Part shown: one piece after another, positions 29,372 to 53,982 of the stretch
Numbering within the stretch: position 1 is the first letter of the stretch
Layout of the letters: every line of letters starts with the position of its first letter
From: Meiothermus sp. Pnk-1
Lineage (GTDB): Bacteria; Deinococcota; Deinococci; Deinococcales; Thermaceae
Reading direction: 5' to 3'
Assembly (NCBI RefSeq): GCF_003226535.1
Contig: NZ_QKOB01000006.1
Location: forward strand, 149,136-213,135
Length of the DNA: 64,000 nucleotides
Made by a program: the position numbers and the translations under genes
Notes under the pieces: generated by a model
What the model was told of the DNA's origin: nothing
Databases searched by the model: none
What the model saw: only the letters and a program-made list of their open reading frames with translations

Positions 29372-29433
29372 AGACGAATCCAGCCCATTGCTATCGCGCT
29401 GGCCACTTGAATTGGGGCATCGGGTCGTGCTGA
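29372..29433. other. Start of a 402-bp gene-free repeat region
   Basis: The interval 29372-29773 holds no credible gene. It is filled by a 7-bp tandem repeat and a 42-bp repeat array, both annotated separately, and ends with the promoter-proximal region of the GH13 gene. Confidence 0.6.
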
Positions 29434-29444
29434 CGTCGTACGCT

Positions 29445-29509
29445 ATACGCTAAACGCGACTTGCGTCGTACGTCATACGCAATACGCAAAACGCCAGACG
29501 CTAAACGCG
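29445..29509. repeat. Heptanucleotide tandem repeat (NNACGCN)
   Basis: Consecutive 7-mers ATACGCA, ATACGCA, AAACGCC, AGACGCT, AAACGCG occupy 29475-29509; a shorter block ATACGCT, AAACGCG is at 29445-29458. The period is strictly seven bases within each block. Such decayed short tandem arrays are often intergenic in Meiothermus-like genomes; function is unknown. Confidence 0.75.
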
Positions 29510-29554
29510 GGGGACGATCCCCTACCCCGCCTACCGGCGGCGAAGGAAGCGTCT

Positions 29555-29680
29555 CGGGACGGCGTACCGCCGTACACCCAAGGGACGATCCCCTATCGGG
29601 ACGAGCAAAGCTCGTACGCCTAGGGGTAGATTCCCTTCGGGACGGCGTACCGCCGTACACCCGGGGGACCGATCCCCTTC
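29555..29680. repeat. Three tandem units of a 41-42 bp hairpin repeat
   Basis: CGGGAC recurs at 29555, 29597 and 29638 (spacing 42 and 41). Each unit reads CGGGAC, a short hairpin (GGCGTACCGCC twice, GAGCAAAGCTC once), GTACRCC, then a G-run and a GATYCCCT block. Units 1 and 3 share a perfect 24-bp core (29556-29579 and 29639-29662). The same design occurs inside the pabB-pabA gene. Confidence 0.85.
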
Positions 29681-29773
29681 GTATGACGTACGACATTTGA
29701 TAGCGGGGGATATACAAATCTAGAAAGCGTAGGACCCCTAAAGGCAGAATAGACTGGGGCCAGGGGGAGCATC

Positions 29774-51271: not shown

Positions 51272-52009
51272 CTAGCCCCTTGACGACGGCCCGGAGGGCC
51301 GGAAATGGGTGATCAGGGCCTCGAGCACGCTATCTAATGGCTTGCCTACGGACAGGAGGCCGATGCCTGTCCCGGCGAGGAGGAGCTGGCCCTCTAGTTC
51401 CTGTGGCCTAATGTAGGCCAGGAACACCGGAAGGCCCATCTGGGTGGCGTGATCTACCACCTTCTGCCGGGTAATGCCCTCCACCCCGCCCTCTAGCACC
51501 CACAGCTCCCCATCGCGCCACAGCAACGGGCTGGTGCGGCTGCCATCGACCACATGCCCGTGAACATCGAGCAGCAGGCCCTCGAAGCAGCCCTCCTGCT
51601 CGGCCTCGCGCCGGGCGAGGCGGTACGGAAGGTAGTTGCCACTCTTGTAGCGGCCAAGGTCGGGGTGGACCCGCAGCGAGGTGACGTGGACGCTCACTCC
51701 GTAGGTATAGGCGGGCTCGGGGGGCGGGGCGAAGGGGCGGGCGCTCGAGGCGTACCCTTCGGGAGCCACCGCCAGCCGCAGCAACAGGTCCGAGCGCTGC
51801 TCGCGGTAGTGCTCGACCTCCCGCTCGAGCGCCCCGAAGCCCGGAAAAGCGATACCCAGTGCCTCGGCGTGGTGGCGCAGGCGCTCGAGGTGCTCGGGTA
51901 GCCACAGCGGCTCGCCACCCTCCAGGCGCAGCGTGGTGAACACGAAGAAGCCATGCCAGAAGGACTCGGGGAGCGAGGTGCCGACGGGTTGACCGTTGAT
52001 GCGGATCAT
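51272..52009 (-). CDS. pabC: Aminotransferase class IV, probable 4-amino-4-deoxychorismate lyase
   Basis: A 245-residue PLP protein of fold type IV. It opens MIRINGQPVGTSLPESFWHG; the PLP lysine lies in DLGRYKSGNYLPYRLARREA, and the conserved ELWVLEGGVEGITRQKVVDH (EGxxxxxTR-type) follows. It overlaps the pabB-pabA gene by 4 nt, and that context identifies it as the enzyme converting aminodeoxychorismate to p-aminobenzoate rather than a branched-chain aminotransferase. Confidence 0.87.
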   Translation of the reverse strand: MIRINGQPVGTSLPESFWHGFFVFTTLRLEGGEPLWLPEHLERLRHHAEALGIAFPGFGALEREVEHYREQRSDLLLRLAVAPEGYASSARPFAPPPEPAYTYGVSVHVTSLRVHPDLGRYKSGNYLPYRLARREAEQEGCFEGLLLDVHGHVVDGSRTSPLLWRDGELWVLEGGVEGITRQKVVDHATQMGLPVFLAYIRPQELEGQLLLAGTGIGLLSVGKPLDSVLEALITHFRPSGPSSRG

Positions 52010-53982
52010 GGCTCAGGGTTCAGCGAGAGAAAGTTGCCCAGCAGCACCATCCCGTACTCCGAGAGCAGGCTCTCCGGGTGGAACTGCACGCCCCAAGCTG
52101 GGCGTCGCCGGTGGGAAAGCGCCATGCACAGCCCGGAGGCGGTCCAAGCCTCCAGCCGCAGCACCGGGGGCAGGTCGCAGAGGAGCAGGGAGTGGTAACG
52201 GGTGAAGCGGGCCGGACTGGGCACTCCCGCGAAGATCCCCTCGCCGCGGTGCTCGAGCCAGAAGGCTTCGCCGTGAACCGGACGGGAAGAGCGCTCCAGG
52301 CGTGCCCCCAGCACCACCCCCAGGGCCTGGTGCCCCAGGCAGATCCCCAGGAAGGGCAGGCGGGCCTCGAGCGCGGCTCGGGTCCACTCGAGGGTCCGGC
52401 CCGCCGTCGCCGGCTCGCCCGGCCCCGGCCCGACGACGAGGTGGGTAGCCCACGACAGATCGGGCGCTTCGCCGTGGTCAACCACCCGGACCTCGGCCCC
52501 CAGCGCCCTAAGGTAGTCCACGAGGTTGTAGCTGAAAGAGTCGTGATTCTCCAGGAAGATCACCCGGCCTCCCAGGCGTCTTGCCGGTATCGGCGGCCTC
52601 CAAACGCTGTCTCGACGCGGTAGGGCCGGGGCCTGCCCCTCCCGACCCTGCCCCAAAGCTTGCAGTAGGGCTTCGGCCTTGGCCTGGGTCTCGGCGTACT
52701 CGCGCTCGGGATCGCTCTCGATGACGATGCCCGCCCCCGCCGAGAAATAGCCCGTCCCGCCCGCGAAGCTGAAGCTGCGGATGAGGATGTTGAAGTCGCA
52801 CCCCCGCCCCGAGACGTAGCCCATGGAGCCGGTGTAGGCCCCCCTCGGCACCGGCTCGAGCTCGGCGATGGCGCGCATCACGCTCTCCTTGGGCGCGCCG
52901 GTGATGGTCCCGCCGGGGAAGATGCTGGCGAAGGCCTCGCGCAAGGGGGCCCGGCTCCTGCCCCGCACCTCGGAGACCAGGTGCATGACGTGGGAGTAGC
53001 GCTCGAGCGTAAAGGCTTCGCTCACCTCCACGCTTCCCGGCTCACATACCCGCGCCAGATCGTTGCGCAACAGGTCCACGAGCATGACGTGCTCGGCCCG
53101 CTCCTTGGCGCTGGCCCGCAGTTCGGCCCCCAAGGCCTCGTCCTGCTCGGGGGTCCGGCCCCTGGGGCGGGTCCCGGCGATGGGCCGCGCGGTGATGACG
53201 CCATCCCGGTAGTCAAACAGTCGCTCGGGGCTGCCCGAGACCACCGCGTAGCCCTTTTCCGCCGGCCCGCCCTCGAGCAGACCCATGAAGGGGCTGGGAT
53301 TGTGGCGCCGCAGGGCCCGGTACAGGGCCAGGGGGTCCACCCCGTGCGCCGCGAAGCGGAAGCGGTGGGAGAGGTTGACCTGGTAGACCCAACCGGCCCG
53401 GATGCGCTCTTGCACCTCCGCGACGCCCGCCAGAAAGGCCCGCTCGGGGTAGTCGCCGTGCAACTCGACTTGCGGCAGCGGTCGAGGCTCGGCCAGGACC
53501 GGGGCGAGCGCCGTGGAGGGGCTCTGGACGCGCTGCCCCTCGAGCCAGGCATACCCCTCGGGGTAGTAGTAGAACGCCGCCTCGGGCAGTCCGGGCATGG
53601 GGGAGTGGGTGGGCAGCCCCAGGTGACGGGCGTACTCGTAGGCGAAGAAGCCGATCCAGGCCGGGAAATACCCACCGGCGTACCGGGCTTGCCCGGTCCC
53701 GAAGGGAATCTGCCGCCCGGCGTACCGGGTCTGCCCGGTCCCGAAGGGAATCTGCCTCGCTCCCAAGCCCTGCTCGAGGTAGCGAAAGACCTCGAGCGCG
53801 TCCCCCACCGCCTCCCCGTCGAGGTAGGTGATGCCTTCCCACACCTCCAGCCGCCGCGTGGCCCCCACCCCGAGCAGGGTCAGCCGCCCGAAGGGGGTTA
53901 CCACCCCGGCGGACTCGAGCAGGGCCGGGCGCAGGCCCTGGGACCGGGCCCAGGCGTAGAGGGTGGCGGCATCCTCCTGCAT
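52006..53982 (-). CDS. pabBA: Fused aminodeoxychorismate synthase, PabB-PabA type
   Basis: A 658-residue fusion. Residues about 1-455 are the chorismate-binding synthase (VYQVNLSHRFRF, PIAGTRPRGRTPEQDEALG, LRNDLARVCEPGSVEVSEAF, FPGGTITGAPKESVMRAIAE). Residues about 485-658 are a class I glutamine amidotransferase with LENHDSFSYNLVDYL, catalytic Cys in FLGICLGHQALGV and His in QFHPESLLS. The order synthase-amidotransferase is like TrpE(G) fusions. The active-site motif is PIAGT, not PIKGT of E. coli PabB, so anthranilate synthase activity cannot be ruled out; pabC next to it supports PABA synthesis. A 14-residue tandem repeat interrupts the N-terminal domain. Confidence 0.9.
   Translation of the reverse strand: MQEDAATLYAWARSQGLRPALLESAGVVTPFGRLTLLGVGATRRLEVWEGITYLDGEAVGDALEVFRYLEQGLGARQIPFGTGQTRYAGRQIPFGTGQARYAGGYFPAWIGFFAYEYARHLGLPTHSPMPGLPEAAFYYYPEGYAWLEGQRVQSPSTALAPVLAEPRPLPQVELHGDYPERAFLAGVAEVQERIRAGWVYQVNLSHRFRFAAHGVDPLALYRALRRHNPSPFMGLLEGGPAEKGYAVVSGSPERLFDYRDGVITARPIAGTRPRGRTPEQDEALGAELRASAKERAEHVMLVDLLRNDLARVCEPGSVEVSEAFTLERYSHVMHLVSEVRGRSRAPLREAFASIFPGGTITGAPKESVMRAIAELEPVPRGAYTGSMGYVSGRGCDFNILIRSFSFAGGTGYFSAGAGIVIESDPEREYAETQAKAEALLQALGQGREGQAPALPRRDSVWRPPIPARRLGGRVIFLENHDSFSYNLVDYLRALGAEVRVVDHGEAPDLSWATHLVVGPGPGEPATAGRTLEWTRAALEARLPFLGICLGHQALGVVLGARLERSSRPVHGEAFWLEHRGEGIFAGVPSPARFTRYHSLLLCDLPPVLRLEAWTASGLCMALSHRRRPAWGVQFHPESLLSEYGMVLLGNFLSLNPEP
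53675..53758 (-). repeat. In-frame 42-bp tandem repeat within pabBA
   Basis: Two adjacent 42-bp units (53675-53716, 53717-53758) differ at only a few positions and encode RQIPFGTGQTRYAG and RQIPFGTGQARYAG. Read on the minus strand each unit has CGGGAC, a hairpin (CGGGCA..CCCG), GTACGCC and GATTCCCTT, the same order as the intergenic array at 29555-29680. Confidence 0.85.

Follow-up and report, generated by a model that had tools for sequence, protein, structure and literature searches.

The question raised by this locus is whether a short segment of the pabBA gene is a copy of a repeat that is dispersed through the genome and has entered the coding sequence in frame, as the first-pass annotation of this DNA proposed. 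The window, that is, the whole 64,000-nucleotide stretch of Meiothermus sp. Pnk-1 that was analyzed, contains pabBA on the minus strand at 52006–53982. The gene encodes a fused aminodeoxychorismate synthase in an open frame of 658 aa, in which Pfam identifies Chorismate_bind (3e-86) and GATase (2.5e-39, glutamine amidotransferase) domains. The genome itself (G000) is a 3.5-Mb draft in 36 contigs, of which the stretches around the repeats were read.

The insertion in pabBA

Two adjacent 42-bp units encoding a 14-residue duplication, as described in the annotation, are present at 53675–53758 on the minus strand. They form an in-frame insertion of 84 bp, the edge of which is ambiguous by 1 bp, and add 28 residues to the predicted protein, RQIPFGTGQTRYAG and RQIPFGTGQARYAG, 14 residues each. 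On the minus strand, each unit contains, in this order, CGGGAC, a hairpin, GTACGCC and GATTCCCTT. With the covariance model described below, for which the E-values are rough, the core of the first unit (CGGGAC, a CGGG/CCCG hairpin, GTACGCC and GGCAGATTCCC) was located at 53704–53743 on the minus strand with a score of 47.7 bits and a genome-wide E-value of 4.1e-7. The core of the second unit, at 53663–53701 on the same strand, has the same stem and differs at two loop bases; it scored 36.9 bits in one covariance search and 30 bits genome-wide (E = 0.0066). As a pair, the pabBA units fold no better than shuffled sequences (z = −0.75).

PabB-like proteins were found in 60 relatives, and 24 Thermales homologues were aligned with the pabBA product. 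Exactly the 28 inserted residues are missing from all 24, and the outcome that the annotation named as contrary to its proposal, namely the same 14-residue segment in distant homologues, was therefore not seen (0 of 24). In PabB of Allomeiothermus silvanus DSM 9946 (G001), of the genomes G002, G006 and G011 and of about 20 more Thermales genomes, the insertion is absent and its flanks are contiguous; at the DNA level, too, the flanks are uninterrupted in the nearest genomes. With 84–93% identity on both flanks in G001, G002 and G006 and an empty site in the nearest genomes, the insertion would most simply postdate the split from A. silvanus. A related-protein search of the genome contigs with PabB yielded distant PabB-like proteins only. 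A position in a poorly conserved loop of the N-terminal domain is plausible from the alignment; in a structure model of PabBA based on 19 sequences, the pLDDT of this domain was mostly 30–60, which is too weak to place the loop.

The insertion itself is the only feature that would suggest a decaying gene in which the in-frame state is coincidental. However, the frame is intact over its full length, both domains are complete, and the coding scores upstream and downstream of the insertion are equal, which makes decay very improbable. The near identity of the two units is what would also be expected if a PabB loop had simply been duplicated in tandem and had only a chance likeness to the intergenic repeats. 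Against such a duplication, a single copy from which it could have started is missing in the relatives, the first unit is recognized by the model at E = 4e-7, and the peptide frame QIPxGT..YA also occurs in an unrelated gene of G006. This explanation is hardly credible, and chance resemblance or local duplication is excluded by the empty sites together with the genome-wide counts given below.

The dispersed hairpin family

Searched as a gapped pattern, the conserved blocks gave 98 matches in the Pnk-1 genome and none for the reversed control, which excludes chance. A covariance model built from 39 units recognizes 156 copies in this genome. The search of the genome and its relatives that the annotation had recommended thus disposes of its second contrary outcome, a lack of other copies. 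In the close genomes, 19 (G001), 18 (G002) and 30 (G006) copies were found by the same model. Genomes of group g4, taken to be Meiothermus, contain 0–9 copies, those of group g3 contain none, and all 27 genomes of group g5, taken to be Thermus, have 0 copies; group g2 is taken to be Calidithermus.

The unit, of about 42 bp, has the architecture GGACGATCCCCTTCGGGAC, variable stem-loop, GTACACCGG. The conserved blocks of the family are CGGGAC, GTACRCC and GATYCCC, and GACGAT is present in most units of the relatives. The pabBA units, which are homologous to this family, belong to a GTACGCC/GGCAGATTCCC subtype that is also present in genes of relatives. At the position where the common intergenic variant has TAGATTCCC, which would be a stop in the reading phase of pabBA, CAG is found in the copies of pabBA and G006. 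Among known RNA families, only tRNAs were found in the window and three loci. A viral origin of the unit was considered and rejected, as the exact 19-bp core, searched as one variant only, had no match in IMG/VR.

A common secondary structure, the last of the checks suggested in the annotation, was found as a shared hairpin with covariation. In a pattern-selected set, in which the stem was left unconstrained, 98.7% of the cells of helix 1 pair, and the whole tested structure contains 43 double-change cells compared with 10 after shuffling. The corresponding values for the covariance-fitted set, which is biased toward the model by construction, are 99.4% paired and 127 double-change cells compared with 30. 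When the helix partner was slid by one column, pairing decreased to about 30%. In the 156-copy family, the sequence of the stem is therefore free to vary while its pairing is kept. Because template switching at quasi-palindromes could also yield perfect stems without selection, the covariation is evidence of hairpin maintenance and not of its cause.

With about 156 copies in the genome and empty sites in the PabB relatives, the proposal of a dispersed repeat that entered a coding sequence in frame is borne out. Very probably, a short palindromic element that spreads as DNA in the branch of the Thermaceae comprising Meiothermus, Calidithermus and Allomeiothermus recently entered pabBA in frame and gave rise to the segment.

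Copies within genes and between genes

With genes called by codon usage and open frames, so that the calls are statistical, the other genomes have 53 of their 81 units within genes, compared with 10 of 161 in G000. The former value is not an enrichment, since most of a bacterial genome is coding; it indicates that genes are not avoided. The genic units use all six phases (sense 9/26/5, antisense 14/3/6), and thus no single peptide is selected.

Alignments with empty sites at the DNA level confirm insertions in six genes, namely pabBA, hycD-like, hycE-like, thiO-like and alpha/beta hydrolase genes and one, without a Pfam match, that we take to be DUF885-like. The hycE orthologues of G000 and G001 have insertions at different sites, both of which are empty in G002, and one of them, in G001, consists of exactly one 42-bp unit. 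The alpha/beta hydrolase gene has 0 units in G000, G001 and G013, 1 in G002 and 4 in G006. This variation indicates that units expand inside genes, and the suggestion that a repeat of this length can grow by whole units without breaking the frame is thereby supported. Units are likewise spanned by RefSeq CDSs of A. silvanus, namely those of a RES-family protein, a secretin and a hypothetical protein.

Several loci are rich in units. A hyc hydrogenase-like cluster (L205 3024–8468; G000 C6:39.2–44.7 kb) has at least 4 separate in-frame unit clusters, and its copy on an A. silvanus plasmid has other units at other sites. On plasmids or possible plasmids of G006, G002 and A. silvanus, many units were also found in genes for type IV pili, secretin and conjugative coupling (L231, L232, L233, L335, L321, L234); these units often lie in the same linkers and differ in number and orientation.

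In the Pnk-1 genome, about 150 copies lie between genes; of its 70 clusters, 7 are genic and 63 do not belong to the in-gene set. The intergenic array of the window, at 29555–29680 on the plus strand, consists of three units with the stems GGCG/CGCC, GAGC/GCTC and GGCG/CGCC. Its blocks follow the same order as in the pabBA units, as the annotation stated, but the likeness is not exact, since most intergenic copies have GTACACC instead of GTACGCC, many have GATCCCC, and the period is mostly 40–44 bp. Of the 22 steps in genic arrays and those of the relatives, 19 have a period of 42 bp. The array is accompanied on the plus strand by a left heptamer arm, (ACGCNNN)n, at 29430–29509, and a right arm, (CGTNNGA)n, approximately the reverse complement of the left-arm motif, at 29678–29700. 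Array listing and alignments further define a 30-bp nested element, CCCCGCCTACCGGCGGCGAAGGAAGCGTCT, at 29525–29554 (plus strand) between GATCCCC and CGGGAC. Numerous arrays, as well as the insertions in hycD and hycE, contain this element nested at the same position; it is sometimes longer, and it is also seen at L205 3024–3135 and 6079–6185.

Arms with a 7-bp period were found at 57 of the 63 intergenic G000 clusters and at none of the 67 others, which are the 7 genic clusters of G000 and 60 clusters in other genomes (Fisher, 2e-30). There are thus two strata, an arm-flanked intergenic composite in the Pnk-1 genome and an arm-free genic form in the relatives, and the intergenic copies are not the direct look-alikes of the genic form for which they had been taken. 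Heptamer repeats also occur independently of the units, with 1197 pattern matches in G006, and are absent from most other relatives.

The gaps that hold intergenic G000 arrays are 20 convergent, 33 tandem and 5 divergent, compared with 34/125/47 in the background, and the arrays thus favor gene ends and avoid divergent gaps. Together with the strong fold of the window array as single-stranded DNA (z = −5.5), this avoidance of divergent promoters is consistent with functional nucleic-acid elements, such as REP/BIME-like terminators, mRNA stabilizers or protein-binding hairpins, that are selected between genes and for which genic copies would be rare accidents. However, most copies of the relatives are genic and arm-free, and purifying selection against promoter damage would give the same avoidance; we consider such a function unlikely to account for the family.

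In intergenic arrays, neighboring units have like stems in 8 of 88 cases, where 14.3 are expected (P = 0.04), whereas genic arrays, for example those of four units, show largely uniform stems. This difference suggests that the growth of intergenic arrays is due in part to the addition of foreign units, and that of genic arrays to duplication on the spot. At array edges, runs of AAAAAA/TTTTTT substitute part of the first unit (L186, L196, L198, L209, L218, L221 and others), and contigs C1, C2, C7 and C8 terminate within or just past arrays. This looks like a difficulty of short-read assembly, and the true arrays may be longer than those assembled.

Mode of spread and comparison with known repeats

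The Pnk-1 genome has one Y1_Tnp, in a 143-aa frame, and no unit flanks it. Across the relatives, a unit lies near 5 of 29 Y1_Tnp loci, and no clean link between the number of Y1_Tnp genes and the copy number of the units was seen among the genomes. Mobilization by a RAYT was rejected on these two grounds, the unflanked sole Y1_Tnp and the lack of a clean copy-number link. No mobilizing gene was identified among the Y1 transposase loci checked, and no target-site duplication was seen at the insertions.

As a mechanism, a single unit of about 42 bp would enter a new site, where the folded single strand may be what the spreading machinery recognizes. The copying may be performed by a trans-acting activity, either an HUH-type or other ssDNA enzyme or template switching during replication. 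Within a gene, the unit could survive as a predicted 14-residue linker, as it is 42 bp long and often free of stops, and would then give rise to further tandem copies, 42 bp at a time; the predicted peptide is probably tolerated rather than useful. In the Pnk-1 genome, the unit would have become embedded in the heptamer arms, and it is this composite form that may have undergone the intergenic explosion. More generally, we tentatively propose a mobile palindromic family of thermophilic Deinococcota in which the machinery reads the fold of the hairpin rather than its sequence. The unit would be tolerated in every frame, may thereby serve as a general supplier of linker peptides, and would still be changing in copy number within genes.

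Passive multiplication, by replication slippage, quasi-palindrome template switching and recombination between arrays, would require no dedicated mobility. It is consistent with the largely homogeneous tandem copies of genic arrays, with nearly perfect stems, as template switching between the arms would make, and with units that have no association with a transposase. However, it leaves unexplained both the lone 42-bp unit at an unrelated new site in hycE of G001 and the mixed stems of adjacent intergenic units, and we regard it as rather doubtful.

The family can be compared with the RPEs of Rickettsia and the WPEs of Wolbachia, which are short dispersed palindromic repeats that lie in frame in unrelated genes and add peptides to their products (PMC3767692, PMC10969869). 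The Meiothermus family resembles them in its dispersed hairpin core (156 copies, helix 99.4% paired in the fitted set) and in its in-frame presence in six unrelated genes with empty homologues, where the peptides are predicted. RPEs are alphaproteobacterial, of about 100–150 bp by their first description, and encode a conserved peptide; by these descriptions, the Meiothermus unit is set apart by its 42 bp, tandem expansion, six phases and variable stem. Intragenic REPs of the GTAG and CGTC superfamilies, as in Opitutus terrae and Thauera, are hairpins of 20–40 bp that occur singly or clustered within ORFs, and intergenic REPs of these superfamilies prefer convergent and tandem gaps (PMC3733652). 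Hairpin units in ORFs and in convergent or tandem gaps are common to both; however, the Meiothermus family has neither a consistent terminal GTAG/CGTC tag nor a linked RAYT flanked by units. Lacking this tag and RAYT as well as the size of RPEs, the family is assigned to neither group, although it is similar in its working.

CRISPR arrays differ in that they alternate a repeat with unique spacers, whereas the units here abut head to tail and their variable part is a self-complementary stem. Cyanobacterial small dispersed repeats (SDR) are very short, mobile and able to sit in genes; they belong to a different phylum, and the likeness is one of description, not of sequence. In integron attC sites, the structure is conserved while the stem sequence varies, which is an analogy of recognition only.

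In-frame palindromic insertions have been discussed mainly for Rickettsia, Wolbachia and some REP-rich genomes (PMC3767692, PMC10969869, PMC3733652), and none of Thermus, Meiothermus and Deinococcus is named in the main text of the REP survey (PMC3733652). No earlier description of such Meiothermus/Calidithermus repeats was found in the open-access literature. The family is a separate case of a known phenomenon, without an earlier report in the open-access papers searched; it is unusual, as the annotation held, but not unprecedented, given the RPEs, WPEs and intragenic REPs. Here, the hosts are free-living thermophiles with intermediates of 0, 1, 2 and 4 units and with orthologues hit at different sites, which allow the movement of the element, and tolerance versus use of the peptide, to be tested. 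For annotators of these genomes, recurring peptides of the GRSPSGR-, ADDPLSGRxxPVHR- and QIPFGTG-types are to be read as translated DNA repeats and not as domains.

Units also lie close to the C-terminal zinc-finger region of TnpB-like genes, at L315 2473–2507 (G001) and L323 2493–2532 (G002), and a Y1_Tnp remnant lies close to the latter gene.
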